Source: Flavimobilis rhizosphaerae (GTDB lineage Bacteria > Actinomycetota > Actinomycetes > Actinomycetales > Cellulomonadaceae). Taken from it: a DNA stretch of 64,000 nt. Position 1 is the stretch's first letter, and each line of letters begins with the position of its first letter. Both the position numbers and the translations under genes were made by a program. Location of the stretch: contig NZ_JACZDF010000003.1 in NCBI RefSeq assembly GCF_014852685.1, positions 186,001-250,000 on the forward strand, in the 5' to 3' direction. This document shows positions 3,551 through 53,095 of the stretch, piece after piece. The notes under the pieces were generated by a model that worked only from the letters and a program-made list of their open reading frames with translations, made no database searches and was not told the DNA's origin.

Positions 3551-3603
3551 CGACGGATTGACGGGTTCCGCCGATCGGACGGGTGAACCCCGCCAATCCG
3601 TCG
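3551..3603. repeat. Family A palindrome, copy A1
   Basis: The ends are CGACGGATTGACGGGTTC and GAACCCCGCCAATCCGTCG, which pair with one extra base and one mismatch. It lies between two divergent genes (TetR and SRPBCC), so this copy cannot be a simple 3'-end terminator for either. Confidence 0.8.
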
Positions 3604-11287: not shown

Positions 11288-11332
11288 TCGATAGCCGATC
11301 CACACACATGAAGCGTGCGGATCGGCTATCGA
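11288..11332. repeat. Family B palindrome, copy B1
   Basis: Perfect 14-bp arms, TCGATAGCCGATCC (11288-11301) and its complement (11319-11332), around a 17-base loop. It sits between convergent genes, 6 bases after the PKD gene. Confidence 0.85.
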
Positions 11333-19269: not shown

Positions 19270-20945
19270 CCGACGCCGCCCTCACGCTCACGGACCTCCG
19301 CGTCACCGCGGGTGCCCGCACGATCATCGACGGCCTCGACCTCACGGTGCAGCGCGGTCGGACGCTCGGCGTCGTCGGCGAGTCGGGCTCGGGCAAGACC
19401 ATGCTCGTCCGCGCCCTCACGGGACTCCTGCCTGCGGGCGTCGCCGCGACCGGCACGTACGAGCTCACTGGCGCACGCGTCGACCTCACCGGCAGTCCGC
19501 GCGCGTGGGCACGCGTGCGAGGCCGTCGCATCGTCCTCGTGCTCCAGGACCCGTTCACGTCGCTCGACCCCATGCAGCGCTGCGGCACGCAGATCCTCGC
19601 CGGACGCTCCGGGGAGCAGGGGCTCCGCGCTGTGCGCGGGCGACGCGCGGACCGCGACGCCGAGGTCGCCCGGCGCCTCGCCGAGGTCGGCCTGCCCGCG
19701 CACGTCGGCCGTCAGTACCCTCACGAGCTCTCGGGCGGCATGCGGCAGCGCGTCGCGCTCGCCGCAGCACTCGCCGCAGACCCTGACGTCCTCCTCGCCG
19801 ACGAGCCGACGACCGCGCTCGACGTCACGACGCAGCGCGAGATCCTCGACCTCCTCGCGCGCGTCCAGGCGGCGCGCGGCATGACCGTCGTCCTCATCAC
19901 GCACGACCTCGCGCTCGCCCGCGAACGGTGCGACGACCTCGTCGTCGTCCGCGCGGGCGAGATCGTCGAGCGCGGGCCGGCCCGCGAGGTCTTCGAGAAC
20001 CCGCAGCACCCGTACACGCGCCAGCTCCACGACGCCGCTGCGGGGAGGCTCCGCGAGGGTGCGGTCGTCGGCGACGGAGCGCTCCTGCGGGTCGAGGGGC
20101 TGCGCAAGACGTTCCACGGGGCGTCGGCGCCCGCGGTCGACGACGTGTCGCTCACCGTCGCGCCCGGCGAGTGCGTCGGTGTCGTCGGCGAGTCCGGTTC
20201 CGGCAAGACGACGGTCGCGCGCATCGTCGTCGGGCTCGAGACCGCGGACGCGGGACGGGTCGTGTTCGCGGGCGACGGTGGCGCGGCGGGTGCTGAGTGC
20301 GTCGCGTCGCGTGCGTCGGGCACAGGTGCGTCGGGCACGTCGTCGTCGGCAAGCGCCGAACGTCGGCGCGCCGAGCGCCGCCGCGGCCACCGCGGCACGG
20401 GCCGCGACCCGCGCGACGTGCAGATCGTCTTCCAGGACCCGTACTCCGCGCTCAACCCTGCGCTGACGGTCGGCGCGATGCTCGACGAGGCTCTCGCGGT
20501 CGGGCCGCGGACGCGGACCGTCAGCGAGCTGCTGACGATGGTCGGCCTGCCGACGTCCTACGCGCGGCGGCTGCCCGCCCGGCTCTCGGGCGGTGAGCGG
20601 CAGCGTGTCGCGATCGCGCGCGCCCTCGCGCCGGAGCCGCGGCTGCTCGTGTGCGACGAGTCCGTCTCGGCGCTCGACGTCTCGGTGCAGGAGCAGATCC
20701 TCGACCTGCTGGCCGCGCTGCGGCGGGACCTCGGGCTGACGATCCTCTTCATCTCGCACGACCTCACGGTCATGCAGCAGGTGACGGACCGCGTGTATGT
20801 CATGCGGTCGGGGCGGGTCGTCGAGTCCGGTCCGACGTCGCGAGTCCTCGCGGAACCTGAGCACCCGTACACGCGGTCGCTGCTCGCGGCTGTCCCCGGG
20901 GCTCCCATCCCCTCGACGCCCTTACCCCCGCCGTCCGATAGCTGA
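19266..20945 (+). CDS. Double ABC ATPase (DppD-DppF fusion)
   Basis: 559 residues containing two complete ATPase domains. Domain 1: Walker A GESGSGKT at 38-45, signature LSGGMRQRVAL, Walker B VLLADEPTTALD, H-loop ITHD. Domain 2: Walker A GESGSGKTT near residue 305, signature LSGGERQRVAI, LLVCDESVSALD and ISHD. Each ends with the peptide-transporter motif NPQHPYTR / EPEHPYTR. Domain 2 carries a roughly 40-residue Ser/Arg-rich insert between Walker A and the Q-loop, which is unusual. It powers import by the preceding permeases. The final codons and the TGA stop lie in repeat B2. Confidence 0.93.
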   Translation: MTDAALTLTDLRVTAGARTIIDGLDLTVQRGRTLGVVGESGSGKTMLVRALTGLLPAGVAATGTYELTGARVDLTGSPRAWARVRGRRIVLVLQDPFTSLDPMQRCGTQILAGRSGEQGLRAVRGRRADRDAEVARRLAEVGLPAHVGRQYPHELSGGMRQRVALAAALAADPDVLLADEPTTALDVTTQREILDLLARVQAARGMTVVLITHDLALARERCDDLVVVRAGEIVERGPAREVFENPQHPYTRQLHDAAAGRLREGAVVGDGALLRVEGLRKTFHGASAPAVDDVSLTVAPGECVGVVGESGSGKTTVARIVVGLETADAGRVVFAGDGGAAGAECVASRASGTGASGTSSSASAERRRAERRRGHRGTGRDPRDVQIVFQDPYSALNPALTVGAMLDEALAVGPRTRTVSELLTMVGLPTSYARRLPARLSGGERQRVAIARALAPEPRLLVCDESVSALDVSVQEQILDLLAALRRDLGLTILFISHDLTVMQQVTDRVYVMRSGRVVESGPTSRVLAEPEHPYTRSLLAAVPGAPIPSTPLPPPSDS

Positions 20946-20978
20946 TCCGTACACGTCACATGTCCCGATCCGCTATCG
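20936..20978. repeat. Family B palindrome, copy B2
   Basis: Arms CGATAGCTGATC (20936-20947) and GATCCGCTATCG (20967-20978) pair with one mismatch. The left arm supplies the TGA stop (20943-20945) of the double ATPase. Confidence 0.85.
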
Positions 20979-21018: not shown

Positions 21019-21061
21019 CGATAGCCGATCCACATACCTGAGCCGCCCCGATCGGCTATCG
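21019..21061. repeat. Family B palindrome, copy B3
   Basis: Perfect 12-bp arms CGATAGCCGATC (21019-21030) and its complement (21050-21061). It lies 40 bases after B2 in the same gap. Confidence 0.85.
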
Positions 21062-21088: not shown

Positions 21089-21140
21089 CGACGGATTGAC
21101 GCGTTCCCCCGTTCCATGGGTGGATCGCATCAATCCGCCG
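21089..21140. repeat. Family A palindrome, copy A2
   Basis: Left end CGACGGATTGACGCGTTCCC, right end GATCGCATCAATCCGCCG; inner pairing is imperfect. It follows B3 by 27 bases and ends 25 bases before the TTG start of the amidohydrolase. Confidence 0.75.
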
Positions 21141-22887: not shown

Positions 22888-22941
22888 CGACGGATTGAGG
22901 GCTTCCCCCCATTCGATGCGGGGGGTGCCATCAATCCGTCG
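22888..22941. repeat. Family A palindrome, copy A3
   Basis: Ends CGACGGATTGA (22888-22898) and TCAATCCGTCG (22931-22941) pair perfectly; the inner C-run and G-run pair around an ATTCGAT turn. The right arm contains the stop codon of the minus-strand membrane protein (22931-22933). Confidence 0.87.
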
Positions 22942-37600: not shown

Positions 37601-39311
37601 CGTCGATCTCGCGGACTATCCGGACACGTGGGAGCAGGGCGACCTGCGTCTCCCGCTCACGTACGAGCTCTCTCCCGGCCAGCAGACCGACGGGGTGACG
37701 GTGCACGTGCCGCTCGCGGTGCTCGACCGTGTGGTGCCCGACGGCTTCGACTGGCTCGTCCCCGGCATGTGGACGGAGCTCGCGACGGCGACGATCCGCG
37801 CGCTGCCGAAGCCGGTGCGCGTGCAGCTCGTGCCCGCGCCGGACGTCGCGCGGGATGTCGTCGCGTGGCTGCGCGCCCACGAGGCGTCGTGGGCGGACCT
37901 CACGCGCGCGGGCGACATGGCGCCGTCGTTCCACGAGGCGTTCGCGCGCGCGGTGCGCGCGCTGCGGGACGTCGTCGTGCCTGACGACGCGTGGGGCGCG
38001 ACGACGCTGCCGGACCATCTGCGCATGCAGTTCCGCGTCGTCGACTCACGCGGGACCATCGTCGACGAGGGCGCCGACCTGCTCGCGCTGCAGCGCCGGC
38101 TGCGGTCGCGCACGCAGGCGGAGGTGCGGACCGCGGTCCGCACGGCCCTGGCCGACGCGCTCCGCGAAGCGGGCGCCCCGGCACCCTCCGGCTCCGCCTC
38201 CCCCTCCGCTCCGACTCGTAGGTCTGGAGCACCATCGAACGATGCTGGAGACCTTCCAGTCGACCCGCCTGATCCGACTCGAAGGTCCGGAGCACCATCG
38301 AACGGTGCTGGAGACCTACCAGTCGAGGAGGCGGGCGTGCTGCTCGCCGAGCAGGAGCGGCTCACTACGTGGCCGACGCTCACCTCACCCACCGGCGAGC
38401 CCGTCCCGGGCGACGCGCTGCCCGACGAGGTCGTCACGCGACTCGGCGCCGGCCCGTCGGCCACGACCGTCCGCGGATACCCCGCGCTCGTCGTCGAGCT
38501 CGCGCCCGCGGGAGCGAAGGGCGGCCGCAACGTCGAGTCCGTCGCCCTGCGCATCCTCGCGGATCGTCGCCGTCAGGCCCCGGACCACGCGGCGGGCGTG
38601 CGTGCGCTGCTCCTCGCGGAGACCGGCCTGCAGACGCAGCGTGTGACGACCCGGTGGACGGGTCAGCAGGCGCTCACACTCGCGTCGAGCCCGTACCGGA
38701 GCACCGACGCCCTCGTCGGCGACGTGCAGAAGGCCGCGATCGCCGCGCTGACGTCGGGCAGCGAGCCGGGCGTCCCCGAGGCGTCGACGATCCGCTCGCG
38801 TGAGGCCTACGAGGGCGCGCGCGGCGTCGTCCGCGAGCGCCTCGAGGAGCGGGTCCACCAGATCGTCGGGCACGTCGTCGCGGCCCTGGCCGCGGCGCGC
38901 GAGCTCGACACGCAGGTGCGCACGTCGACAAGCCTCGCACTGCTCAACACGCTCACGGACGTGCGCGACGACGCGGCGCGGCTCGTCTTCGACGGCTTCG
39001 TCACCGCGACGCCGCCCGAGCGGCTGCGCCACCTGCCGCGCTACCTGCGCGCGGCCTCGCACCGCCTGACGAAGGCCGAGCAGAACCCCAACCGGGACGC
39101 CGAGCTCGCGTGGAGGATCCGCGACGTCGAGGACGTCTACGACCGTGCCCGCGCCGCATACGCGGCGGGCAAGCCCGACGACGCCCGCCTCGCAGCGCTC
39201 GAGGAGGCGCGCTGGATGCTCGAGGAGCTGCGCGTGTCGTTCTTCGCGCAGCAGCTCGGCACGGACGGCACCGTCTCGGAGAAGCGGGTCCGGGCGCTGC
39301 TCGCTGGCTGA
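34659..39311 (+). CDS. hrpA: HrpA-type DEAH-box ATP-dependent RNA helicase
   Basis: 1550 residues from GTG 34659 (GGGAG 5 bases upstream); GTG 34665 is an alternative. An Arg/Gly/Gln-rich head (RGRGGRGRGP, QGSTQGSTQ repeats) precedes the helicase core: GATGSGKTTQLP near 115, DEAHERSLNIDFLLGYL near 225, TSATIDSERFA, NVAETSLTVPGIRYVIDPG and QRSGRCGRV. HA2, OB-fold and DUF3418 regions follow. E. coli HrpA has 1300 residues; the extra length is in the head and in a repeated insert at residues 1186-1227. HrpA rescues collided ribosomes in E. coli; the same role here is inference from the family. Confidence 0.94.
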   Translation: MPVSTPSGSSEPEGRPRRGRGGRGRGPAQGSSQGSTQGSTQRSSQAGGKGRGRGRRDTFDRETLDARALARAARAAEIRARVDVPAITYPENLPVSGQRSEIADAIRDHQVVIVAGATGSGKTTQLPKILLDLGRGRAGQIGHTQPRRLAARTVAERIAEEIGDEHTGPDGQVRRGRTGGVVGYQVRFTDESSDRTLVKVMTDGILLAQIQRDPLLRAYDTLVIDEAHERSLNIDFLLGYLTQLLPQRPDLKLVITSATIDSERFAEHFASVAADGTRVSAPVIEVSGRTYPVEIRYRPLVEDLPDPAEDKGTPTGAVGGGKAAKKKRPARAVERDLMTGICEAVDELFAEGPGDILVFLSGEREIRDAADALRGHLGDRVDGRGTPLSVEVVPLYARLSAAEQHRVFEPHGGRRIVLATNVAETSLTVPGIRYVIDPGTARISRYSKATKVQRLPIEPVSQASANQRSGRCGRVADGIAIRLYSESDFEGRPEFTDPEILRTSLASVILQMISSGVANGPDDVAGFPFVDPPDVRAVRDGVNLLTELGALADGASLTATGRTLSRLPMDPRLGRMIIEGARRGVGREVLIVTAVLSIQDPRERPTEQRQHADQLHARFADPTSDFLTYLNLWEYLKEQRRALSSSAFRRLCKAEFINFLRVREWQDLVGQLKDMAEQLDLEIKPASRAVVADGSGRGVVRRSAPGARALSVAEAMAEAAEKTGEAPEAETHRYRWDGDTIHRALLAGMLSQIGMQQVTEVGAQRPGRPAREDRRAARQARNEYVGARNAHFAIFPGSPLSKKPPAWIMAGELVETSRLWAREVARIEPEWAEEIGAHLVKHVYSEPHWSSKQGAAQAFEKVLLHGLPIVAQRKVLFSRVDPEGAREMFLRKALVEGEWSTRHEFFARNRELLDEAEQLEARTRRRDLVVDDDTLFAFYDARVPADVVSARHFDRWWKDARRTDPELLTFTPELLVPEAGDVDLADYPDTWEQGDLRLPLTYELSPGQQTDGVTVHVPLAVLDRVVPDGFDWLVPGMWTELATATIRALPKPVRVQLVPAPDVARDVVAWLRAHEASWADLTRAGDMAPSFHEAFARAVRALRDVVVPDDAWGATTLPDHLRMQFRVVDSRGTIVDEGADLLALQRRLRSRTQAEVRTAVRTALADALREAGAPAPSGSASPSAPTRRSGAPSNDAGDLPVDPPDPTRRSGAPSNGAGDLPVEEAGVLLAEQERLTTWPTLTSPTGEPVPGDALPDEVVTRLGAGPSATTVRGYPALVVELAPAGAKGGRNVESVALRILADRRRQAPDHAAGVRALLLAETGLQTQRVTTRWTGQQALTLASSPYRSTDALVGDVQKAAIAALTSGSEPGVPEASTIRSREAYEGARGVVRERLEERVHQIVGHVVAALAAARELDTQVRTSTSLALLNTLTDVRDDAARLVFDGFVTATPPERLRHLPRYLRAASHRLTKAEQNPNRDAELAWRIRDVEDVYDRARAAYAAGKPDDARLAALEEARWMLEELRVSFFAQQLGTDGTVSEKRVRALLAG
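38213..38324 (+). repeat. In-frame palindromic duplication inside hrpA (structure D)
   Basis: Two copies of a 48-base segment start at 38214 and 38277, 63 bases (21 codons) apart, each coding TRRSGAPSN-AGDLPV. Each copy is itself a hairpin (GACT/AGTC outside, AGGTCY/AGACCT, AGCA/TGCT inside). The arms also cross-pair: GTAGGTC of copy 1 matches GACCTAC of copy 2, and GACCTTC of copy 1 matches GAAGGTC of copy 2. This is the same nested four-arm plan as family C. The reading frame stays open through it. Confidence 0.85.
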
Positions 39312-39499
39312 GGCCTGCCCTCGGCCAGACCCGAGTGGCGGGCCTGCCGCGCGGCAGCGCGGCGCCGTGGCGTGCGCAAATACGACGCCGAAACGTTCCG
39401 TTGTGGAATCCCCTACTCCCCAGGCCGGAATCCCTCCGCTAGCGTCATCTAGGTCAGACCCGACCGCTACGGGAGATAGCGGAAAAACAGGGAGAGAGT

Positions 39500-40126
39500 A
39501 TGAAGAAGTCGCTCGCAACGATCGCCGCGACCGTCGTGCTCACGCTCTGGCTCGCCGTCTCGCTCACGGCGTGCACCGGACCGAAGACGCCCGATCCGAC
39601 GGCGGCATACACTCCGCCGGCATGGATGGCGCAGAAGGTCGAGCTCGCCGAACGACAAGCGGTCGTCATGGAGAGGTGCCTGAGAGACGCGGGTCTGGAC
39701 GACGAGGTCTCTGTCGATGCGGGAACCGTCGGAGCCTCGGGTCGGCACGAGACCGAGGCCCTGAGCCCCGAGGAGCAGAAGGCCCGGGTCGAGGCGCGCG
39801 TGGCCATCGCCTCGCGTTGCTCCGAGGAGGCTCAGGCGGCGCACCCGTCTCCGCCCGAGACTCGCGAGCAGGACTACGTCAAGATGACCCAGACCGCCGA
39901 ATGCATCCGCGCCAGCGGCTACCCGGAGATCGGTCAGCCGCCGAGCAGGGACACGTGGATCGACACCTATGACGATCCCGGCTCCTTCCCCTGGTCGGGC
40001 TACGGCGAGCTCTACCGCCTCCACCCTGACATCACAGAGAGGGCGTGGTCCTCGCTCCGCGCGGTCTGCGCGGAGGGTGGCGTCAGCTTCTCACTGAGTC
40101 TCGACGACCGCAGGGGTGCGCAGTGA
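39500..40126 (+). CDS. Lipoprotein, first of a tandem paralogous pair
   Basis: 208 residues, ATG with GGGAGAGAG upstream. Lipobox VSLTAC with Cys25. After a short Thr/Pro linker come PPAWMAQKVELAERQAVVM, CLRDAG, a Gln/Glu-rich middle, MTQTAECIRASGYPEIGQPPS and ELYRLHPDITERAWSSLRAVC. The same blocks in the same order occur in the next gene, so the two arose by tandem duplication. Conserved Cys residues may form disulphides. Function unknown. It opens a same-strand envelope cluster that includes an ABC exporter-like set. Base composition is a little less GC-rich than neighbours. Confidence 0.75.
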   Translation: MKKSLATIAATVVLTLWLAVSLTACTGPKTPDPTAAYTPPAWMAQKVELAERQAVVMERCLRDAGLDDEVSVDAGTVGASGRHETEALSPEEQKARVEARVAIASRCSEEAQAAHPSPPETREQDYVKMTQTAECIRASGYPEIGQPPSRDTWIDTYDDPGSFPWSGYGELYRLHPDITERAWSSLRAVCAEGGVSFSLSLDDRRGAQ

Positions 40127-40785
40127 CGTCGCGGGCCCGTCGTCGTGGGCGCACCCCCGCCCACCACCCTCACGGAGATCCTCACTCATCCGCCCCACCG
40201 CGTCCAAACCTCCTCGGCGCCGCGCTGCTCACCACCACGTTCCTTACCGCGTGCACCGTCGCGCCGGCTCCCGACCCCACCCCGACCGCGGCCTACGCTC
40301 CGCCAGCCTGGATGGCACAGGCGCAGGAGAGCGCTGAGCGCCAGGCCGTCCTCATGCGTTCGTGCCTCGAGGACGCGGGCGTCAATCTCCAGGTCTTCGC
40401 CGACGGGGGGGAGCTCTCGATGTCCGGCGACTCTGGCACCAGCGACGCGACGGACAAAGAGATCCAGGCGCGCGCCACGTCTGAGTCGCGAACCGTGGAA
40501 CGGTGCCTCAAGGAGCTCCAGTCCACGTTCCCCGTCACCGAGGAGTCGAACGAGGTCCGCTACGACAAGATGGCGCAGACCGCAGAGTGTGTGCGCGCCA
40601 ACGGTTACCCGGAGGTCGGCCAGCCGCCGAGCAAGGACACGTGGGTCGAGACCTACGACGACGGCGACCCCTGGAGCCCCTACCGGGAGCTCTACCGCCT
40701 CCACCCGGATATCACCGAAGACGCGTGGCGGAGCCTCCGCGCGATCTGCGCCCAAGGCGGCGTCAGCTACAGCCTGATCTTCTAG
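40123..40785 (+). CDS. Lipoprotein, second of a tandem paralogous pair
   Basis: 220 residues from the GTG that overlaps the previous stop (GTGA). The head is long and His/Pro/Arg-rich before a hydrophobic run (LLGAALLTTTFLTAC, lipobox Cys44). The mature part repeats the plan of its neighbour: PPAWMAQAQESAERQAVLM, CLEDAG, MAQTAECVRANGYPEVGQPP, ELYRLHPDITEDAWRSLRAIC. Expression must be tied to the first copy. Retention of two diverged copies side by side suggests that they act as a pair, but no function is known. Confidence 0.75.
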   Translation: MTSRARRRGRTPAHHPHGDPHSSAPPRPNLLGAALLTTTFLTACTVAPAPDPTPTAAYAPPAWMAQAQESAERQAVLMRSCLEDAGVNLQVFADGGELSMSGDSGTSDATDKEIQARATSESRTVERCLKELQSTFPVTEESNEVRYDKMAQTAECVRANGYPEVGQPPSKDTWVETYDDGDPWSPYRELYRLHPDITEDAWRSLRAICAQGGVSYSLIF

Positions 40786-40910
40786 TGCCTGGCGGCCCCC
40801 GCTCGGAGGTCGCGCGAGCGCCACACGCACCCGGCCGGCAGCCACCCCACGACCGACACCTCCCTCACCGTGTCGTTCGGCATCGAGCTCGACATGGACA
40901 AGGAGACGCC

Positions 40911-41975
40911 GTGAAGTCAGGAACCCGCGCTACGGCCGCGTGGATCGGGGCCGTCGTCCTCGCTGCCGGTCTGGGCGCCTGGGCGGGACGTGCCACGTTC
41001 ACGCCCCCGTCGACCGACGCGACCCTCGCTGCGCCCGTGCTCCACACCGTGACGGAGGAGACGGTGGGCCGTGTCCAGGAGTTCCCCGTGTCCGCGACGT
41101 GGTCGACGACGCCGCTCGTCGTCGGCGCGGCCTCAGGGACCGTGACGTCGGTCAAGGTGAAGCCGGGCGCGACGGTCGACGCGGGTGACGTGCTCTACAC
41201 GGTCGACCTGCGCCCGACGGTCGTCGCTCAGGGCGCCATCCCCGCGTTCCGCGAGCTCGCCTCCGGGGCACGCGGCGCGGACGTGCGCCAGCTCGAGACG
41301 ATGCTCGACGCCACGGGTCACCTCGCGGCAGGCCGCGTCGACGACGTGTTCGACGCGGCGACGACAGCCGCCGTCCGCGCGTGGCAGAAGGCCGCCGGCT
41401 ACCCCGTCGACGGCGTCGTCCACCTCGGTGACGTGGCGTTCGCCAAGTCGCTGCCGACGCGCGTCGTGCTCGACAAGGAGGTGCGGGTCGGCTGGCCGGC
41501 GCCGACCGGGGCGAGCGTCGCGTCCGCACTCACCGAGGCACCGACGTTCACGATCCGCCTCACGGCGGACCAGCAGGACCTCGTCCCGACGTCGGGCGCC
41601 GTCACCGTGACAGGACCGAAGGACGCGCAGTGGAAGGGCGTCATCGCGGGCTCGAAGATCACCGACCAGGGCGAGCTGCTGCTCACACTCGAGGCCGCCG
41701 ACGGCGGTCCGCTGTGCGGGAAGGCATGCGCGGACGTACCGGCGGACCAGGATGCGGCGATCTACTCCGCGAAGATCGTCGTCGTTCCCGAGGAGACCGG
41801 ACCCGCGGTCCCCGCAGCCGCGCTGCAGTCGGACGCGTCCGGCTCGACGTTCGTCGAGGCGCCCGACGGGACGCGCATGCCCGTGACGGTGCGCGCACAG
41901 TCGCGCGGCCTCGCCGTCGTCGACGGTGTCGCTGCCGGCACGCAGGTACGGCTCGTCGCGTCGGCGTCGTCGTGA
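40911..41975 (+). CDS. Efflux adaptor with a peptidoglycan-binding domain
   Basis: 354 residues, GTG with a strong AAGGAG 5 bases upstream. One N-terminal membrane anchor (AAWIGAVVLAAGLGAWAG). A biotinyl-lipoyl-like hairpin region (GTVTSVKVKPGATVDAGDVLYTVD) is interrupted by a peptidoglycan-binding type 1 domain (RGADVRQLETMLDATGHL, DDVFDAATTAAVRAWQ). Later beta-barrel-like strands and a C-terminal RGLAVVDGVAAGTQVRL resemble MacA/HlyD adaptors. It should link the ABC permease encoded next to the wall. The three genes overlap, so they form one unit. Confidence 0.88.
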   Translation: MKSGTRATAAWIGAVVLAAGLGAWAGRATFTPPSTDATLAAPVLHTVTEETVGRVQEFPVSATWSTTPLVVGAASGTVTSVKVKPGATVDAGDVLYTVDLRPTVVAQGAIPAFRELASGARGADVRQLETMLDATGHLAAGRVDDVFDAATTAAVRAWQKAAGYPVDGVVHLGDVAFAKSLPTRVVLDKEVRVGWPAPTGASVASALTEAPTFTIRLTADQQDLVPTSGAVTVTGPKDAQWKGVIAGSKITDQGELLLTLEAADGGPLCGKACADVPADQDAAIYSAKIVVVPEETGPAVPAAALQSDASGSTFVEAPDGTRMPVTVRAQSRGLAVVDGVAAGTQVRLVASASS

Positions 41976-42619
41976 CGGCCGTCCTCGAGGCCCGTGACCT
42001 CACGTTCGCGTACCGTCGCGGCGCGCCGCCCGTCATCGACGGGCTCACGCACGCGTTCGCGCCAGGAGCGCTCACGACCGTGACGGGCCCGTCGGGCTCC
42101 GGCAAGTCGACGCTGCTGTACGTGCTCGCGCTCATGCTGCGTCCGACGTCGGGCCAGGTGAGGTGGGACGATGACGACGCGTCCGCGCTGCCCGACGCCG
42201 CCCGAGCGCGCCTGCGCGCGGGCCATGCGGGCTTTGTCTTCCAGGACGCGGTGCTCGACCCGGCACGCACGATCCTCGACAACGTGCGCGAGGCTGCGCT
42301 CTTCGCGGGAATGCCCGACGACGACGCCCGTGAGCGCGCGCTCGAGCTGTGCGACCGCTTCGGGGTTGGCCACCGGGTCGATCACCGGCCGGGTGAGATC
42401 TCAGGAGGCCAGGCGCAGCGCGTCGCCCTGTGCCGCGCGCTGCTCACGAGGCCGCGGGTTGTCTTCGGTGACGAGCCGACGGGCAACCTCGACGGCGCGT
42501 CGGCCCGGATCGTGTGGGACGCGTTGCGTGCGCATGCGCGGGCGGGTGCGACGGTCGTCGTCGCGACGCACGACGAACGTCTCGCTGACGAGTCGGACGA
42601 GCGGGTGGTGCTCTCGTGA
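41972..42619 (+). CDS. MacB/LolD-type ABC ATPase
   Basis: 215 residues from a GTG overlapping the adaptor stop. Walker A GPSGSGKSTLL near residue 37, Q-loop FVFQDAVLDPARTI, signature ISGGQAQRVALCRALL, Walker B VVFGDEPTGNLD, H-loop VATHDERLAD. The FQ-x-x-L-P-type loop and NLD ending are typical of the LolD/MacB group, which drives mechanotransmission rather than transport through a channel. It works with the adaptor before it and the FtsX-like permease after it (start overlaps the stop here, GTGA). Confidence 0.93.
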   Translation: MTAVLEARDLTFAYRRGAPPVIDGLTHAFAPGALTTVTGPSGSGKSTLLYVLALMLRPTSGQVRWDDDDASALPDAARARLRAGHAGFVFQDAVLDPARTILDNVREAALFAGMPDDDARERALELCDRFGVGHRVDHRPGEISGGQAQRVALCRALLTRPRVVFGDEPTGNLDGASARIVWDALRAHARAGATVVVATHDERLADESDERVVLS

Positions 42620-43788
42620 CCCAGACGCGCGATCCGGAGATCGACACGGCGAGAGCGACGGCGCCGATATGGCCCGGCCGGCCCCACGCCCGTCATCTCG
42701 TGCGCGACGGCGTCCGGACGGCGCTCGTCCAGCGGGTGTCGTCGATCGCGGGGGCGTTCATCGTCGCGATCATCTGCGTCGTCGTCCTCGCGACCGCGGG
42801 CCGCAGCGCGGCGAACGAGCGTGCGATCCTCTCGCAGGTCGACTCGGTCGGCACACGGCTCCTCACGCTCGTCGACGACAAGGGTGAGGCGGGCGTCACG
42901 GCGGACGGCGTGCTCGCCCTCGCGGGGGTCGACGCCGTCGACGAGGCGTTCGGGCTCGGCTCCGCCGTCGACGTGCGGTCGGTCGCGACGCCCGACGGCG
43001 GGGCTGCGGCTCGACGCGCGCTCGTCGGGTCGCTGCCGGAGGACCTCACTCTCGTCTCGGGCCGTGCGCCTCGCCCTGGTGAGGCCGTCGTCGGCGTGAC
43101 CGCGGCCCGCGCGCTTGGGCTCGCCGACGGGCTCGGCGCGGTCGCGCTGCCGCGCTCGGGCGCGGACGAGACGCCCGTCGTCGGCGTCGTCCACGGGACG
43201 GGGCCACTCGCGAACCTTGACGAGCTCGTCCTCGCGCGGCCCCCGGCCGGTGCCGCGCCCGTGCCGGTGCGGTTCGTCTACGTGACGGCCCGGAGCGTCG
43301 GCGACGTGCCGTCGCTCACGACGCTCCTGCCCGAGCTCGTGCGCGCGGAAAACACGTCCTCGCTCGCGGTGGAGGCACCGAGCGGCGCGATCGCACTGCG
43401 CGACGCGATCTCAGGGCAGCTCGGCGCGTCGTCGCGGCAGATGATGGCGCTCGTCCTGGGTGTCGGGCTCGTCATCGTGTCCGTCTCGACGTACGGGGCC
43501 GTCGCGGGGCGGCGGCGCGACTTCGGGCGGCGGCGCGCGCTCGGCGCGTCGCGGTCGGCGATCGTCGTGCTCGTCCTCGTGCAGACTGCGGTCGTCGCGT
43601 GCTCCGGTGCGGCGCTCGGCGTCGGGGTGGGCCTGTGGGCGACGTGGTCGGCGGCAGGCTCCCTGCCGTCGGTCTCGTTCGTCACGGGGGTGGGGGTGCT
43701 CGCGGTGCTCGTCGCGCTCGCCGGGGCGGTGCCGCCCGCGCTGGCGGCGGCGCTGCGCGACCCGGTGCGGATCCTGCGCGTCCCCTGA
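42616..43788 (+). CDS. FtsX/MacB-like ABC permease
   Basis: 390 residues from a GTG that overlaps the ATPase stop. One helix near the N-terminus (about 45-65, IAGAFIVAIICVVVLATAG), a large extracytoplasmic domain, and three helices at the C-terminus (around 280-300, 320-345 and 355-380). This 1+3 arrangement with RRRDFGRRRALGASRSAIV between helices is that of the MacB/FtsX family. With the preceding genes it forms a tripartite exporter-like complex. The substrate may be an antimicrobial peptide, an antibiotic or lipoproteins; the sequence does not decide. Confidence 0.9.
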   Translation: MTQTRDPEIDTARATAPIWPGRPHARHLVRDGVRTALVQRVSSIAGAFIVAIICVVVLATAGRSAANERAILSQVDSVGTRLLTLVDDKGEAGVTADGVLALAGVDAVDEAFGLGSAVDVRSVATPDGGAAARRALVGSLPEDLTLVSGRAPRPGEAVVGVTAARALGLADGLGAVALPRSGADETPVVGVVHGTGPLANLDELVLARPPAGAAPVPVRFVYVTARSVGDVPSLTTLLPELVRAENTSSLAVEAPSGAIALRDAISGQLGASSRQMMALVLGVGLVIVSVSTYGAVAGRRRDFGRRRALGASRSAIVVLVLVQTAVVACSGAALGVGVGLWATWSAAGSLPSVSFVTGVGVLAVLVALAGAVPPALAAALRDPVRILRVP

Positions 43789-43873
43789 CCCACGGCGGTT
43801 GGACGAGTGGCGCAAGTCACTGGCCCGTCACGACACAGACATAGCGAGAGCCACGTCGTCGCAGGAGGCCCGC

Positions 43874-44314
43874 ATGCGCACCCGCCGGATCGTCGCCGCC
43901 ACAGCGGCCGCGCTCGCTCTTGCGGGGTGCGCGGCCACCGAGGCGTACATCGACTACGTGTCACCCTCGATCTCGTCGGCACCGACAGCCGCGCCGGGTG
44001 CGACGATCACCGTGACGGGCGCCGAGTTCATCGCCGACAGGCGCGACCGGGTGAGGTACGACGTCTTCGGCCGCGAGCACCCCGAGGACCGCTCTCATCC
44101 CGCGGAAGGCATCGAGGTCGTCCTCGTCGTCGGGGAGGTCCGGACGACGCTCGTGACCGTCGACGCCGCCGCCGACGGCACCTGGACCGCGACCGTCGTC
44201 GTCCCGGCGACCGCGCCCCCGGGTATGGCGACGCTCGAGGCCGACGCCGACGGCCTCGCCGTTCCGGCGACCACGTCGCTCACGCTCGTGGCCGCGTCCG
44301 GGGAGGCGTCGTGA
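43874..44314 (+). CDS. Small lipoprotein with IPT/TIG-like fold
   Basis: 146 residues, ATG with GGAGG upstream. Lipobox LALAGC with Cys19. The mature part has the beat of an IPT/TIG immunoglobulin-like domain: APGATITVTGAEFIAD, VLVVGEVRTTLVTVD, ADGTWTATVVVPATAPPGMATLEA. It shares this plan with the gene that follows. Both probably display on the outside and may be part of the exporter locus. The stop overlaps the next start (GTGA). Function unknown. Confidence 0.78.
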   Translation: MRTRRIVAATAAALALAGCAATEAYIDYVSPSISSAPTAAPGATITVTGAEFIADRRDRVRYDVFGREHPEDRSHPAEGIEVVLVVGEVRTTLVTVDAAADGTWTATVVVPATAPPGMATLEADADGLAVPATTSLTLVAASGEAS

Positions 44315-46133: not shown

Positions 46134-46186
46134 CCGACGGATTGATGGCTTCCCCCATTCGATGGGGGAAGCCATCAATCCGTCGG
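46134..46186. repeat. Family A palindrome, copy A4 (perfect)
   Basis: 25-bp arms 46134-46158 and 46162-46186 are exact reverse complements with a 3-base TCG turn. It starts 3 bases from the gntR operator and ends 41 bases after the MerR stop (minus strand), so it could terminate merR and insulate gntR. Confidence 0.9.
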
Positions 46187-47090: not shown

Positions 47091-47465
47091 TCAGAGCGTG
47101 TGGTCGGCGATGAGACGGTTGAGGTTGCGGATGTCGACACCGCGCGCGAACTCGAGACGCACCACGCCGAGCCCGCTGAACCACAGGTCCATCTCGGAGT
47201 CGAGGTCGAACGTCCCGGCAGTCTCGACCGAGAACGCCTGGATCCGTGCGTACGGGAGCGACGTGTAGTCGATCTTCTTGCCGGTGATGCCCTGGACGTT
47301 GACGGCGATGAGTCGCTTGCTCGTGAAGACGACGAAGTCCCGCATGCCCTTGAACGCGAGGTAGATCTGCTCACCGTGGGTGAGGTGCTCGCCCACCTTC
47401 TCGTGCGCAGCAGCGACGTCCCACTGCGAGAGCTTGACGTAGCTGGCATTCGTGAAGTCGATCAT
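47091..47465 (-). CDS. Bacterial PH-domain protein (YvbH/DUF1696-like)
   Basis: 124 residues, the usual length. Family pattern: a N-terminal helix with VGEHLTHGEQIYLAFKGMRDFVVFTSKRLIAVNVQGITGKK, then DYTSLPYARIQAFSVETAGTFDLDSEMDLWFSG and the final IRNLNRLIADHTL. No membrane segments, so cytoplasmic. PH folds of this kind assemble into rings or act as scaffolds; the function is unknown. Start at ATG 47465. It lies upstream of merR on the same strand. Confidence 0.9.
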   Translation of the reverse strand: MIDFTNASYVKLSQWDVAAAHEKVGEHLTHGEQIYLAFKGMRDFVVFTSKRLIAVNVQGITGKKIDYTSLPYARIQAFSVETAGTFDLDSEMDLWFSGLGVVRLEFARGVDIRNLNRLIADHTL

Positions 47466-47576: not shown

Positions 47577-49715
47577 ATGACCTCCGACGCGCCCAGCACC
47601 CCGTTCGAGCACCTCGACGACGTCGTCGCGCTGCCTCGTCTCAGCGGGCTCGCGCTCTCCCCGGACGGGCGCAGGCTCGTCACGGGTGTGGCGACGCTCC
47701 ACCCGGACGGCGACCGGTACGTCACCTCGCTGTGGGAGGTGGACGCGCGCGGCGAGGCCGCGCCGCGCCGCCTGACGCGCGGCGCGAAGGGTGAGAGTCA
47801 GCCCGCGTTCACGCCAGACGGTGACCTGCTGTTCGTCGCGACCCGGCCCGGTGGTGACGACGACGAGAAGGCCCGCCTGTGGCTGCTCCCGGCCGGCGGG
47901 GGCGAGGCGCGCACGCTCGCGTCCCACCCCGGTGGGATCGACGGTGTCTCCGTCGCGCGCGGCAGCGGGACGGTGCTCGTCGGGGCGTCGGCGCACGTGC
48001 GCTCGAGCGACGTCGCGGACGACGCCGCGCGGCGCAAGGTCCGTGACGACGCCAAGGTCACCGCGATCCTCCACGACGGCTACCCGATCCGCTTCTGGGA
48101 CCACGATCTTGGTCCGTCGATGCCGCGGATCTACGCCCTCGACGGGTCGGCCGCGGAGACGCCGGCCGCGGACCCGTCGGGCACGTCCGGTACCGATGCG
48201 TCGGGCGCCGACGTCCCCGCCCCGCACCCCGCGACCGTCGTCGACGACCTGGCACCCGCCGTCCTCCGCGACCTCACGCCGGACGCAGGTCCGGCGCTCG
48301 ACGGCGCCGCCTGGGACCTCGCTCCCGACGGCACGTGGCTCGTCACCGAGTGGGTGCGGCCCGAGGGCCGCGCGAACCTCGGCACGGGCCTCGTCCGGGT
48401 CGACATCGCGACCGGGGAGCGCACGGACCTGCTCGTGCCCGACGCGACGCACGACCACCACGCGCCGCGCGTGAGCCCCGACGGCGCGCACCTCGTGTGG
48501 GTGCGCAGCGAGCGGTCGACGCCGCACGCCGGGCCGCGCGACGAGCTGTGGCTGCTCGAGCTTGCGACGGGTGCGCAGCGTCGGCTCGGCGCGGACTGGG
48601 ACGGCTGGCCGGGGCAGGTCGTGTGGCTGCCCGACGGGTCGGGGCTCGTCATGACGGCCGACTGGCAGGGGCGCGGACCTGTGTTCCGCGTCGACGTCAC
48701 CACGGGCACCGTCGTGCGCCTCACGGACGAGGGCGTGTTCACGGACGTCGTCGTCGCGCCGGACGGCTCCGCAGTGTTCGCGCTGCGCTCGTCGTGGGAG
48801 CACCCGGCCGAGCCGGTGCGCATCGCGCTCGACGTCACCGAGGGCGGGTTCGCGCAGGTCACCGACCTGCGGGGCCCGGCGCAGCGCCCCGCGCTGCCGG
48901 GCACGCTCACCGAGGTGACGACGACGGCCACCGACGGCACGCCCCTGCGGGCATGGCTCGCACTGCCCGACGGGGCGTCGGCCGACGCGCAGGCGCCGCT
49001 CGTCCTGTGGATCCACGGCGGGCCGCTCGGCTCGTGGAACGCCTGGTCGTGGCGGTGGAACCCGTGGCTGCTCGTCTCCCAGGGATGGGCCGTCCTCATG
49101 CCCGACCCCGCACTGTCGAAGGGCTACGGGCAGGCGATGGTCGATCGCGGCTGGGGGCGCTGGGGCGCCGAGCCGTTCACTGACCTTCTTGCGCTCACCG
49201 ACGCGGCCGAGGCTCGCGCCGACGTCGACGAGACGCGCACGGCCGCGATGGGCGGGTCCTTCGGCGGGTACATGGCGAACTGGGTCGCCGGGCACACGGA
49301 CCGCTTCCGGGCGATCGTCTCGCACGCGGGACTGTGGTCGCTCGAGCTGTTCCTGCCGACGACCGACCACGCGTCGTACTGGGCGCGGGAGATGACCCCG
49401 GAGATGCGTGCGGCGTGGTCGCCGCACCGGTCGGTCGGCGAGATCCGCACGCCCATGCTCGTCGTCCACGGCGACAAGGACTACCGGGTGCCGGTCGGCG
49501 AGGGGCTCTCGCTCTGGTACTCGCTGCTCAGCGCGTCGGGCCTGCCGCAAGCCGACGACGGTACGACGGCCCACCGGTTCCTGTACTTCCCCGACGAGAA
49601 CCACTGGATCCTCAAGCCGCAGCACGCGAAGGTCTGGTACGCGACGGTGCGCGGGTTCCTCGCGGAGCACGTGCTCGACGAGGCCCCCGCTGACCCGCCG
49701 GCAACGCTCGGCTGA
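47577..49715 (+). CDS. S9 prolyl-oligopeptidase-family peptidase
   Basis: 712 residues from ATG 47577. The first 430 residues form a TolB/WD40-like propeller (LALSPDGRRLV, PAFTPDGDLLFVA, VSPDGAHLVWV repeats). The C-terminal alpha/beta hydrolase domain has the oxyanion segment LWIHGGPLGSWNAWSW, nucleophile GGSFGGY (Ser561), Asp in HGDKDYRVPV and His in DENHWIL. This is the acylaminoacyl-peptidase/dipeptidyl-peptidase branch that cleaves oligopeptides. No signal peptide, so cytoplasmic. A Ser/Asp/Thr-rich insert of about 25 residues interrupts a propeller blade near 200. Its stop is inside repeat A5. Confidence 0.93.
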   Translation: MTSDAPSTPFEHLDDVVALPRLSGLALSPDGRRLVTGVATLHPDGDRYVTSLWEVDARGEAAPRRLTRGAKGESQPAFTPDGDLLFVATRPGGDDDEKARLWLLPAGGGEARTLASHPGGIDGVSVARGSGTVLVGASAHVRSSDVADDAARRKVRDDAKVTAILHDGYPIRFWDHDLGPSMPRIYALDGSAAETPAADPSGTSGTDASGADVPAPHPATVVDDLAPAVLRDLTPDAGPALDGAAWDLAPDGTWLVTEWVRPEGRANLGTGLVRVDIATGERTDLLVPDATHDHHAPRVSPDGAHLVWVRSERSTPHAGPRDELWLLELATGAQRRLGADWDGWPGQVVWLPDGSGLVMTADWQGRGPVFRVDVTTGTVVRLTDEGVFTDVVVAPDGSAVFALRSSWEHPAEPVRIALDVTEGGFAQVTDLRGPAQRPALPGTLTEVTTTATDGTPLRAWLALPDGASADAQAPLVLWIHGGPLGSWNAWSWRWNPWLLVSQGWAVLMPDPALSKGYGQAMVDRGWGRWGAEPFTDLLALTDAAEARADVDETRTAAMGGSFGGYMANWVAGHTDRFRAIVSHAGLWSLELFLPTTDHASYWAREMTPEMRAAWSPHRSVGEIRTPMLVVHGDKDYRVPVGEGLSLWYSLLSASGLPQADDGTTAHRFLYFPDENHWILKPQHAKVWYATVRGFLAEHVLDEAPADPPATLG

Positions 49716-49768
49716 CGGATTGACGCTCTCCTCCCGCCGGTTGGGCGGGATGCGTCGATCCGTCAGCC
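49710..49768. repeat. Family A palindrome, copy A5
   Basis: Ends GGCTGACGGATTGACGC (49710-49726) and GCGTCGATCCGTCAGCC (49752-49768) pair with one mismatch; inner CCCGCC and GGCGGG pair too. The peptidase stop TGA (49713-49715) is in the left arm. Confidence 0.87.
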
Positions 49769-49781
49769 GGGCAGGCTCGCT

Positions 49782-49824
49782 CGATAGCCGATCGGTGCAC
49801 GTCACGTGCACCGATCGGCTATCG
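49782..49824. repeat. Family B palindrome, copy B4 (perfect)
   Basis: 19-bp arms 49782-49800 and 49806-49824 are exact reverse complements with a 5-base loop (GTCAC). It follows A5 by 13 bases, between convergent genes. Confidence 0.9.
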
Positions 49825-49939
49825 GCACTCGCGGGGGGGCGCTGGGGAGCAGCTCAGCCCAACAAGACGACGCGGGCGCCGCGTCGCATCGTGCAGCTTC
49901 TCACCGGTCGTCAGTGAACGTGAACACGCGTGAGGCGCA

Positions 49940-50854
49940 TCAGGGCGAGGGGAGCGTCACCGTGTGCGACATGGCCTTAGCAGCCTTGCGCGCTTCCTTG
50001 CCGCTGAACTCCGTAACGACAGGCTTCTTTTCAAGAGCTTCAGAGACGACGACGAGCCGCCAGTCCTTCTCCTTCTTCGCGGCCTTGAGCTCGTTGGCGC
50101 TGAGGATGACAGCCGAACTCGCCGTCCGCCTGCCAATCTTGCCCTTGACCTCGACGAGGATCGTCTCCTTGACGCCGCCCTCCTTGCGCTTGAGCTTGAG
50201 GTCATAGCCGAGGCCACGCTCGCTCTGGACGTCATCCACGACCTTGAAGCCGAGCTTCCTGTAGTGCTTCTTCGCCGCCGCGACCGCGCGCTTCTCGACG
50301 ATCGCCTTGAGCCCGCTGCCGGAGTGACGGGACCGCACCGCTGCGGTCCCGTCGTACAGCGACTCGTGGCCGGCTAGCGCAAGGAGCGAGTCGAGCTCAG
50401 ACTTCGTGAGATAGGCGGGCGAGACCTGGGGCTTCGCGACCGGCTCGGACGCGGCGAGCACCTCATCCTCGCGCGACTGCTCGAGCGTCACGGGCACCTC
50501 CCAGAATGTCAGCCCGACCCCCAGCCATGTCGTACGGCTCTGAGCTCGCTCGGAGTCGGCCCACGCGTCCGGATCAGCCTGGATCCCCGTGACCACACCG
50601 TCGGTGATGACCCCCGCGCCCCAGAACCCCGCATCGACGGTTCGCGACCCGCGCCCGACGTAGAAGATGACCGGGTCGTCCTCCCGCATCTCGTCGAGGC
50701 GGTACGACGTGCTGTTCGTCAAGCTCCAGTAGTCGTCCAGACCGCCCTTGGCGAGGAGTTCCTGAGGCTTGCTGAACTCCGGGTTGCACTTGATGACCCA
50801 TGCTCCAAAGTCGGGCAGGCGACGTACAGGCTGCTCGGTGCTCGCGTTCGACAT
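49940..50854 (-). CDS. EVE-domain/NOV_C (DUF3883) nuclease-like protein
   Basis: 304 residues. Residues 12-125 have EVE/PUA-like traits: AWVIKCNPEFSKPQELL, YWSLTNSTSYRLDEMREDDPVIFYVG, GFWGAGVITDG, an aromatic-cage-style domain that reads modified bases. Residues 180-290 match NOV_C/DUF3883, a PD-(D/E)xK-like fold: KKHYRKLGFKVVDDVQSERGLGYDLKLKR, then ILVEVKGK, giving the D...E-x-K set, and ILSANELKAAKKEKDWRLVVV. Together they suggest a single-protein, type IV-like cutter of modified DNA; that is inference. The gene is visibly less GC-rich than all neighbours and sits between clusters of family A and B repeats, so recent acquisition is plausible. Confidence 0.82.
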   Translation of the reverse strand: MSNASTEQPVRRLPDFGAWVIKCNPEFSKPQELLAKGGLDDYWSLTNSTSYRLDEMREDDPVIFYVGRGSRTVDAGFWGAGVITDGVVTGIQADPDAWADSERAQSRTTWLGVGLTFWEVPVTLEQSREDEVLAASEPVAKPQVSPAYLTKSELDSLLALAGHESLYDGTAAVRSRHSGSGLKAIVEKRAVAAAKKHYRKLGFKVVDDVQSERGLGYDLKLKRKEGGVKETILVEVKGKIGRRTASSAVILSANELKAAKKEKDWRLVVVSEALEKKPVVTEFSGKEARKAAKAMSHTVTLPSP

Positions 50855-50935
50855 GGTCTGAGACTAGCCGTCCGTGGGGCCGTCGTCGGGGGACCGTCGG
50901 GCCCTGGTCGCAGGCGGCGCCGTGAGGCGCCTCCT

Positions 50936-50978
50936 CGATAGCCGATCCATACACCCTTGACGTCCGGATGGGCTATCG
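50936..50978. repeat. Family B palindrome, copy B5
   Basis: Arms CGATAGCCGATCC (50936-50948) and GGATGGGCTATCG (50966-50978) pair with one mismatch. First element of the B-A-B-A-B-B cluster upstream of the EVE/NOV_C gene. Confidence 0.82.
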
Positions 50979-50990
50979 ACGGCCTGGTCG

Positions 50991-51046
50991 CTCACGGATT
51001 GAGGCGTCCCCCCGTCGGACGGGTGGGACGCGTCGAGATCCACGAG
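50991..51046. repeat. Family A palindrome, copy A6 (degenerate)
   Basis: Left end CTCACGGATTGAGGCGTCCC, right end GGGACGCGTCGAGATCCACGAG. Pairing is interrupted near the outer end, so this is the most decayed A copy; the inner CCCGTC and GACGGG still pair. Confidence 0.7.
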
Positions 51047-51113
51047 ATGCGCGACGGTGTCCTGTCCCCGGCGGACCTCCCTGTCCCGGCGGCGACCGCC
51101 TGACCCTGCATGC

Positions 51114-51156
51114 CGATAGCCGATCGGACCACCACAGGTGTCCCGATCCGCTATCG
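51114..51156. repeat. Family B palindrome, copy B6
   Basis: Left arm CGATAGCCGATCGGAC, right arm GTCCCGATCCGCTATCG; the outer CGATAGC/GCTATCG and inner GGAC/GTCC pair, with a small bulge between them. Confidence 0.78.
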
Positions 51157-51180
51157 AGCGGGCTCGGCACCCTCTCCTGC

Positions 51181-51232
51181 CGACGGATTGACGTGTGCCC
51201 CCATTGAACGGGGGGGCACACGTCAATCCGTG
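51181..51232. repeat. Family A palindrome, copy A7
   Basis: Left GACGGATTGACGTGTGCCCC and right GGGGCACACGTCAATCCGTG pair over 19 bp, failing only at the outermost base. The inner stem (CGTGTG/CACACG) differs from other A copies but is fully paired. Confidence 0.88.
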
Positions 51233-51284
51233 CACGAGGAGCGTCCCGATCCGCGGCCCCGGACCGGGGGCTCCGCTCCGGGGC

Positions 51285-51333
51285 GCTCGATAGCCGATCC
51301 GTACACATGCTGCGTCCCGATCCGCTATCGAGC
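51285..51333. repeat. Family B palindrome, copy B7, nested in a larger palindrome
   Basis: Arms GCTCGATAGCCGATC and GATCCGCTATCGAGC pair with one mismatch. Outside it, GCTCCGGGGC (51275-51284) and GCCCCGGAGC (51343-51352) add a further 10-bp stem, so the whole structure covers 51275-51352. Confidence 0.85.
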
Positions 51334-51360
51334 GGGCCACCCGCCCCGGAGCGAAGTCCA

Positions 51361-51401
51361 GATAGCCGATCCGTGCGTGTGATGTGCACCGATCGGCTAT
51401 C
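51361..51401. repeat. Family B palindrome, copy B8
   Basis: Arms GATAGCCGATCCGTGC (51361-51376) and GCACCGATCGGCTATC (51386-51401) pair with one mismatch. Last element of the cluster. Confidence 0.83.
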
Positions 51402-51559
51402 GACCTACGAGGCCGCGCGTGGGGTGCCCTCCTCAGGGCGCAGCTACCGGACCATCTATCGCTCCGCTGGCCGCAACGTTGGCGGCAGCGCCGCCCGGAC
51501 CGCTGGTCGGAGCGGCTGCCGCCCCATCTCACGGAGCTGGCTGCGGAGCGCAGGGTCCG
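51402..51559. other. Remainder of the long intergenic gap; no gene seen
   Basis: The gap 50855-51559 has no credible coding frame on either strand. Its first two thirds hold six repeats (B5, A6, B6, A7, B7, B8). In this last part I see only a 9-bp hairpin, GGCGGCAGC (51481-51489) with GCTGCCGCC (51515-51523), which could terminate transcription beyond the APC permease gene. Confidence 0.5.
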
Positions 51560-53095
51560 TCAGACGCCTGGGTCGCGGACGCCGTCAACCGACGGGTCGG
51601 GCGCGGCCAGCAGCGAGTGTCGCCGCGAGTAGGAGAGGTAGACGACGGCCCCGACCGCGATCCATGCGAGGAACCGCAGCCACGTGAGGACAGTGAGGTT
51701 CGTGGTCAACCAGATGCACGCGAGGCCGGCCGCCACGGGCAGCACGGGCGACCACGGCACACGGAAGCCCCGCGTGAGGTCGGGGCGGGACCGCCGCAGC
51801 AGCGGCACCCCGAAGCACACGAGGATGAACGCCGAGAGCGTCCCGATGTTGATCATCTCCTCGAGGAACCCGACGTCCGCGAGACCGGCGATCCCGGCGA
51901 CGACGACGCCGATGCCGATCTGCAGGGCGACGGGCGTGCGCGTGCGCGCGTGCGTGACGGACATGCCGCGCGGCAGGAGGCCGTCGCGGCTCATCGCGAA
52001 GACGATGCGTGCGAGCCCGAGGAGCAGCACCATGACGACGCTCGTGAGCCCGACGAGGATGCCGATGGAGATGACCTTCCCGGCCCAGTCGGCGCCGACG
52101 AGCACGAACGCGCTGGTGAGCGACGGCTTCTCAACCGCTGCGAGTTCCGTGTAGGGCACCATGCCGGTGACGACGACGGTGACAAGGATGTACAGCACGG
52201 TGACGAGCGCGAGCCCGCCCAGCACGCCGCGCGGGATCGTGCGCTGCGGGTCGCGGGCTTCCTCTGCCGTCGTCGCGACGACGTCGAAGCCGATGAACGC
52301 AAAGAAGACGAGTGCTGCACCCGAGAGGATGCCGAGCGCCCCGTACATCGACGGCTCCTGTCCGGTGAGGAACGCGACGAGCGGCTGGTGAAGGCCGGAC
52401 TTCCCCTCGGTGGGTTGCGACGGGGGCACGAACGGCGTGAAGTTCTCCGCCTTGACGTAGAGGAACCCGACGACGATGACGAAGAGCGTGATGCCCACCT
52501 TGAGGATCGTCAGAACGGAGTTGACGCGCGTCGAGAGCTTGGTGCCGAGGACGAGCAGCACGGTGAAGAAACCGACGACGAGGACGGGCGCCCAGTCGAG
52601 TGTGAGCGGCCCGAGGTCGACGCTCAGGGGGATATCGACCCCGAAGAGCGTGAACGCGTCGCCGACGTACACGCCCCAGAATTTCGCGATGACGGCGGCG
52701 GCGAGCAGCATCTCGAGGATGAGGTCCCAGCCGATGAACCAGGCGACGCCCTCGCCGAACGTCGCGTACGAGAACGTGTAGGCGGATCCTGCGATCGGCA
52801 GGGTTGACGCGAACTCGGCGTAGCACATGATGGCGAGCCCGCAGACGACGGCGGCGATGACGAACGAGACGATGACGGCGGGCCCGGCGTGGTGCGCGGC
52901 AGCGGAGGCCCCGACAGAGAAGATGCCAGCGCCGACGGCGACAGAGACACCGAGGACGGCAAGGTCCCACGCGGTGAGGTTCCGCTTGAGGGAGCGCGTC
53001 TCGTCGTGGCTTGTGGCGATCGCTTGCTCGACGCTCTTGCGTCGCGCGAGGCTGCGGAGGAACGTCGCTGCGGGTCGCGAGTCGTGGCTGGGCAT
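51560..53095 (-). CDS. APC-family cationic/branched amino acid permease
   Basis: 511 residues from ATG 53095; a frame start 23 codons upstream looks spurious. About 12-14 membrane helices. APC markers: NLTAWDLAVLGVSVAVGAGIFSVGASAA in helix 1, CYAEFASTLPIAGSAYTFSYATFGEGVAW, GFDVVATTAEEARDPQRTIPRG in helix 6, which is typical of the CAT/YfnA subgroup. It should take up amino acids by proton symport or exchange. It is transcribed alone, divergent from thymidine kinase. Confidence 0.93.
   Translation of the reverse strand: MPSHDSRPAATFLRSLARRKSVEQAIATSHDETRSLKRNLTAWDLAVLGVSVAVGAGIFSVGASAAAHHAGPAVIVSFVIAAVVCGLAIMCYAEFASTLPIAGSAYTFSYATFGEGVAWFIGWDLILEMLLAAAVIAKFWGVYVGDAFTLFGVDIPLSVDLGPLTLDWAPVLVVGFFTVLLVLGTKLSTRVNSVLTILKVGITLFVIVVGFLYVKAENFTPFVPPSQPTEGKSGLHQPLVAFLTGQEPSMYGALGILSGAALVFFAFIGFDVVATTAEEARDPQRTIPRGVLGGLALVTVLYILVTVVVTGMVPYTELAAVEKPSLTSAFVLVGADWAGKVISIGILVGLTSVVMVLLLGLARIVFAMSRDGLLPRGMSVTHARTRTPVALQIGIGVVVAGIAGLADVGFLEEMINIGTLSAFILVCFGVPLLRRSRPDLTRGFRVPWSPVLPVAAGLACIWLTTNLTVLTWLRFLAWIAVGAVVYLSYSRRHSLLAAPDPSVDGVRDPGV

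Follow-up and report, generated by a model that had tools for sequence, protein, structure and literature searches.

Helically phased 41-bp dyad repeats in Flavimobilis rhizosphaerae: possible sites of a chromosome-organizing protein, with an EVE/NOV_C gene as likely passenger

We analyzed a 64-kb stretch of the Flavimobilis rhizosphaerae genome (contig NZ_JACZDF010000003.1; hereafter the window), in which two families of palindromic repeats, A and B, occur in 15 copies. Eight of these lie within 49715-51401, around a gene for a 304-aa protein with an EVE and a NOV_C domain. From sequence comparisons, we tentatively read the B repeats as sites of a putative chromosome-organizing or nucleoid-occlusion-like protein and the gene as a passenger between them; we hold this reading as a whole to be a real possibility that falls just short of probable.

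The gene and the eight copies had been located by an earlier sequence-only reading, and pattern matching together with shuffling confirmed their arrangement within 1.7 kb. A5, B4, B5, B6, A7, B7 and B8 were recovered by pattern; A6 is a decayed copy. Shuffled windows contained 0 B and 0.05 A, and in 20,000 trials with randomly placed points, eight of 15 never fell inside 1.7 kb. The local order is A-B-(gene)-B-A-B-A-B-B, with the following features:

49715..49763, unstranded: repeat A copy A5, 49-bp palindrome ACGGATTGACG...CGTCGATCCGT
49783..49823, unstranded: repeat B copy B4, perfect 41-bp dyad GATAGCCGATCGG...CCGATCGGCTATC
49940..50854, minus strand: gene of the 304-aa EVE and NOV_C protein (Pfam domains)
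50937..50977, unstranded: repeat B copy B5
50994..51042, unstranded: repeat A copy A6, right arm decayed
51115..51155, unstranded: repeat B copy B6
51183..51231, unstranded: repeat A copy A7, perfect arms of 20 bp
51289..51329, unstranded: repeat B copy B7
51361..51401, unstranded: repeat B copy B8, 72 bp from B7

Repeat B measured exactly 41 bp in every one of the roughly 80 copies that we read. Its dyad-symmetric motif is GATAGCSGATC-N19-GATCSGCTATC, with the half-site YCGATAGCSGATCSGnRCRYG. The half-motif GATAGCCGATC had 106 exact matches in the 3.06-Mb genome of the window (G000) against 0 for the reversed control, and CGGATTGANG had 65 against 1. The copies are found in about 30 intergenic clusters, mostly as arrays of two to five. 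Half-sites were also seen by themselves: at L005:12650-12900 (contig C11 of G000, about 125.6-125.9 kb), six half-B motifs of the same orientation form a direct tandem array with a GC-rich repeat unit and a period of about 41 bp, beside one full B, and half-site arrays seem to occur at L007/L053 too.

The arms of B vary almost independently of each other. Among 76 copies, Watson-Crick matches numbered 42 at position 12 (40.1 expected by shuffling) and 37 at position 17 (34.5 expected), and about 40% of 144 copies from both this genome and that of a sister species (G004, a single contig) were mismatched at the two C/G positions. This argues for a dyad site read as double-stranded DNA rather than for a hairpin, and B indeed looks like a putative protein-binding site of that kind. 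Repeat A, a palindrome of about 49 bp (ACGGATTGACG...CGTCAATCCGT), reads as a distinct element of the hairpin type, frequently interspersed with B: its arms covary strongly at positions 11, 12, 14, 17 and 19 (18 versus 9.5 expected at position 11, 18 versus 10.4 at position 14; tested on 49-mers taken without a palindrome filter). The alternation of A and B had been thought to exceed chance. It did not: 106 adjacent pairs from the two genomes comprised 76 BB, 29 AB or BA and 1 AA, close to the 77:27:2 that we estimated from composition alone, so that alternation does not characterize the A/B system.

Neighboring B copies are separated by whole helical turns. The distances between their starts have modes at 61.9, 72.2, 82.3 and 92.6 bp, in steps of about 10.3 bp, and 70 of the 74 distances under 112 bp fall within 1.6 bp of a mode. 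The Rayleigh R reached 0.85 near 10.5 bp, a value attained by 0 of 2000 random sets, and the modes of the sister genome are similar. Between the two species, 23 orthologous B pairs differed in the core at 9 of 460 positions (2.0%), compared to 108 of 290 (37%) in spacers of the same length (p=4e-40); the share of differing positions was 17% for semi-conserved and 29% for variable ones. Spacer lengths, for example 19, 29 and 39, were mostly kept; of ten spacer-containing clusters, two showed a changed length. Cores kept while spacers diverged at the same places argue for function and not for recent spread.

This conservation bears on the idea that B is a repeat of the REP/BIME type, spread as a neutral passenger by a RAYT or another transposase. 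Tens of intergenic palindromes clustered with a second palindrome, as in BIMEs, would fit such an origin. However, the genome gave 0 matches to a Y1 (HUH) transposase domain in a search that was positive in five control genomes, the cores were retained at old orthologous sites, and the copies are diverse rather than recent, none being identical between the two species. We consider this origin quite unlikely.

With respect to genes, which we called with a home-made codon-usage caller at loci picked around repeats, apart from unbiased control samples, B prefers convergent ends. In G000, 18 of 33 gaps with B were convergent versus 50 of 351 other gaps (odds ratio 7.2, p=5e-7), and the sister genome showed the same bias (odds ratio 5.7, p=1e-4). 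The median distance from a stop codon to B was about 65 bp. One B-B-B array lies immediately 3' of the tmRNA gene (L015:4956-5604).

Along the chromosome, B is concentrated towards the origin, a bias that rests on one chromosome, that of G004, with dnaA at 3.306 Mb. On a map that took in all strict B half-sites, 19 of 28 clusters were within 450 kb of the origin (7.5 expected, p=5e-5), and the mean origin distance was 494 kb instead of the expected 838 kb. The longest stretch free of B spans 779 kb and is centered at 1.57 Mb, as compared to 1.63 Mb for the antipode of the origin. No B was detected in 400 kb of sampled terminus, though four A elements were present there; A, with four copies in 340 kb on the origin side, had no origin bias in these unbiased samples. 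As a control, the density of convergent gaps was 10.8 per 100 kb in the sampled terminus, much the same as the 11.5-13.0 on the origin side. Four parS-like sites, distinct from B, were observed in 3.1 kb about 7-10 kb from dnaA (G004, L129:12851-15979).

The position behind convergent genes could also mean that A and B act as RNA hairpins, either as bidirectional terminators or as stabilizers of mRNA 3' ends. The strong bias for convergent gaps and the short distance past the stop codon would suit this role, as would the covarying arms of A and the ability of B copies to fold as RNA (mean -27 kcal/mol). Against it, the B arms hardly covary, with C-C, G-G or similar mismatches at the core-flanking pair in so many copies, and a terminator-like site with a U-tract was sought in 49500-51700 and none was found. 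Helical phasing, the exact length of 41 bp and the absence from the terminus would not be expected either, the latter because every region needs terminators. We regard this explanation as unlikely, although of some weight.

In the reading of B as sites of a chromosome-organizing protein, each copy would be bound as double-stranded DNA by a dimeric or higher-order protein, and the phased spacing would set neighboring complexes on one face of the helix, allowing them to cooperate. The origin-rich, terminus-free layout would make B a mark of chromosomal position, like Noc and SlmA sites, and gene ends would be the places where such complexes harm promoters least. A more specific version, in which B constitutes the DNA half of an actinobacterial chromosome-marking system whose putative clade-specific protein couples division, segregation or nucleoid folding to replication, is speculative and on balance rather doubtful.

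Several observations weigh against the favored reading. The 144 B copies retain a weak excess of arm matching (z=2.6), the location just behind stop codons would suit terminators too, and Noc and SlmA sites are short and single whereas B forms arrays of 41-bp units. B arrays are missing at some orthologous sites (L009, L012), which indicates that single arrays are dispensable. As the two species share ancestry, the origin bias counts as one observation and not two. A search for a regulator at the few B sites in divergent promoters yielded ordinary genes only.

Turning to the enclosed gene, both parts of the domain set proposed for its product exceeded the Pfam cut-offs: EVE (PF01878) with 2.6e-5 and 24.7 bits (cut-off 23), and NOV_C (PF13020) with 3.8e-12 and 46.5 bits. 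A match to Mrr_cat stayed below its cut-off. Fusions of EVE to nucleases, PD-(D/E)XK among them, have been described as modification-dependent restriction enzymes (PMC7641849, PMC7897488). The protein is most likely a modification-dependent DNA nuclease, in which EVE would read a modified base and NOV_C would cut, and the D...EVK residues may form a PD-(D/E)XK active site. These candidate residues (D218, E235, K237) are conserved in the single orthologue found, a full-length, 88% identical protein of the sister species, and the gene has a dN/dS of 0.17. An AlphaFold model from two sequences had a pLDDT of 37 and was discarded. The GC content of the gene had been described as lower than that of all its neighbors; this is correct for the two immediate ones (65.2% versus 74.5% and 68.5%), but not for the gene at 47091-47465, at a distance of 2.5 kb, with 62.4%. 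Among 433 sampled genes the value corresponds to about the 3rd percentile.

Both B and the gene have a very narrow distribution. Strict B copies numbered 42 in G000 and 38 in G004, with none in the other four of the six genus genomes, and these two were the only ones with B among 222 genomes of the family. The same two alone carried a full-length EVE/NOV_C orthologue, which A/B repeats flank in both. Among 396 sampled genomes of the order, the matches outside the two species were of partial length only. No relatives of the EVE protein were found in plasmids and phages, nor in a pattern search of genome contigs, for which the patterns were too specific. B was not found in about 85,000 other species genomes or in viral contigs, among which own or very near records were possibly left out, nor was A-B array DNA in plasmids and phages, with the same possible omission of very near records. 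Rfam gave no match, and a PDB sequence search returned chance antibody matches only. The palindrome GAGTCCGTCAGTC of another genus member was considered as a counterpart of B and rejected, since it had only a handful of copies. In the genus member G003, two copies of a 50-bp palindrome other than A and B (CGAGTCCGTCAGTC...), present in a handful genome-wide, adjoin the APC permease gene (L036:517-763). At L086 (G283:C2:360379-360837), two in-frame TAG codons interrupt an EVE-domain relative.

The shared occurrence in two of 222 genomes, with repeats around the gene in each, might suggest that the EVE/NOV_C protein recognizes or processes the palindromes, as had been proposed, or spreads them, and the only full-length orthologue found is flanked by repeats as well. 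G000 and G004 are sister species, however: their APC permeases are 96% identical, compared to 68-70% for the other four genus genomes, so that the co-occurrence amounts to a single event. Furthermore, clusters of equal or higher density exist without such a gene, seven elements in about 520 bp each: A-B-B-A-B-B-A at L010 (C11 of G000) and A-B-B-B-B-A-A at L048 (sister genome). Other genes bracketed by B are mostly ordinary, B does not behave as a hairpin, and EVE domains recognize single modified bases (PMC7641849) and would presumably not read a 41-bp motif. We give very little credence to such a functional link.

The second earlier suggestion, that the repeats mark a permissive landing site, gained support. 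Orthologous gaps differing by more than 600 bp between the two species were more frequent with B (8 of 27) than without (12 of 208, p=5e-4), also when only non-operonic gaps were counted (8 of 26 versus 12 of 128, p=0.007), although some of the turnover events counted may be gene-calling artefacts (e.g. L004). At L020, two identical B copies flank 2.45 kb with a 475-aa gene, whereas the sister species has one B with both flanks contiguous, which places the breakpoints of the exchange inside B. At L003/L057, the sister species carries GH3 and sugar ABC genes as a block flanked by B arrays, and the corresponding place in G000 has repeats only. The sampled genome contained five adjacent B-gap pairs, and the genes bracketed by B there and elsewhere (MFS, AbiEi/DUF559, oxidoreductase, GH3/sugar ABC, two-component) are mostly ordinary metabolic and transport genes; the cargo between B arrays is generic. 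One bracketed gene, with AbiEi antitoxin-like and DUF559 domains (L007:6253-7302), sits between two B arrays in a slot kept in both species.

The slot within 49715-51401 itself differs between the species: G000 has the EVE gene alone, while G004 has the EVE gene, a PemK-like gene (below the Pfam cut-off), an ABC pair and a two-component pair. The EVE/NOV_C gene is most likely an acquired passenger in a repeat-flanked slot, as other genes are, and would have been acquired before the split of the two sister species. As B arrays recur and can individually be lost, exchange at B would let genes come and go.

Alternatively, B could serve a cassette system as its site-specific recombination site, with genes being inserted between one copy and the next. 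The pair of identical copies at L020 with a single B in the sister, the raised turnover at B gaps and the five adjacent pairs would be compatible with it. Most arrays, however, are without a gene and have phased spacing, and the L020 event is accounted for by ordinary homologous exchange between repeats. A recombinase linked to B was not found, in an analysis that did not extend to integrase families, and the origin bias would be left unexplained. A cassette system appears improbable.

The remaining copies in the window are the following:

3553..3601, unstranded: repeat A
11290..11330, unstranded: repeat B, with a stop codon 9 bp before
20937..20977, unstranded: repeat B
21020..21060, unstranded: repeat B, 83 bp from the copy at 20937
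21091..21138, unstranded: repeat A
22890..22939, unstranded: repeat A
46137..46183, unstranded: repeat A

At 39311-43874 of the window, about 4.5 kb with five predicted genes in G000 are missing from the sister species, at a site without B.

Actinobacteria have been described as being without the canonical Z-ring regulators of E. coli (PMC7118173), and the known terminus-depleted systems of palindromic sites are those of E. coli, B. subtilis and S. aureus (PMC4726725). About 80 conserved, phased and origin-biased sites make B a ready bait for finding its putative protein. The EVE/NOV_C gene calls for caution, too: palindromes around a defence-like gene do not by themselves imply a functional tie, and the repeats here mark places of gene entry and exit.

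Among known systems, the EVE-nuclease modification-dependent restriction enzymes, such as the EVE-HNH protein VcaM4I, have in common with the present protein an EVE reader fused to a predicted nuclease domain. Here, though, the nuclease part is NOV_C instead of HNH and is predicted from its sequence, and the only full-length relative found is in the sister species. With REP/BIME elements and their RAYT (TnpA-REP), B shares clustered intergenic palindromes, mixing with a second palindrome and a bias for gene ends, but differs in its hardly covarying arms, fixed 41 bp, phased spacing, origin bias and a genome without a Y1 transposase. The parS sites of ParB are likewise palindromic and concentrated at the origin; parS-like sites, however, exist separately beside dnaA, and B is spread along most of the chromosome except the terminus. 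Noc and SlmA sites are palindromic, tens in number and unevenly placed along the chromosome (PMC4726725, PMC4117426); those of SlmA are commoner near the origin (PMC4117426), and site arrays added to the terminus delay division (PMC4726725). Noc sites measure 14 bp, whereas B, in an actinobacterium, has 41 bp and forms arrays with helical phasing at the ends of genes. The resemblance is one of distribution only, and membership is not claimed. Within these bounds, B is similarly dispersed and palindromic, its nearly independent arms point to double-stranded recognition, and it is similarly uneven and depleted at the terminus, with 19 of 28 clusters near the origin and no copy in the terminus sample of 400 kb.

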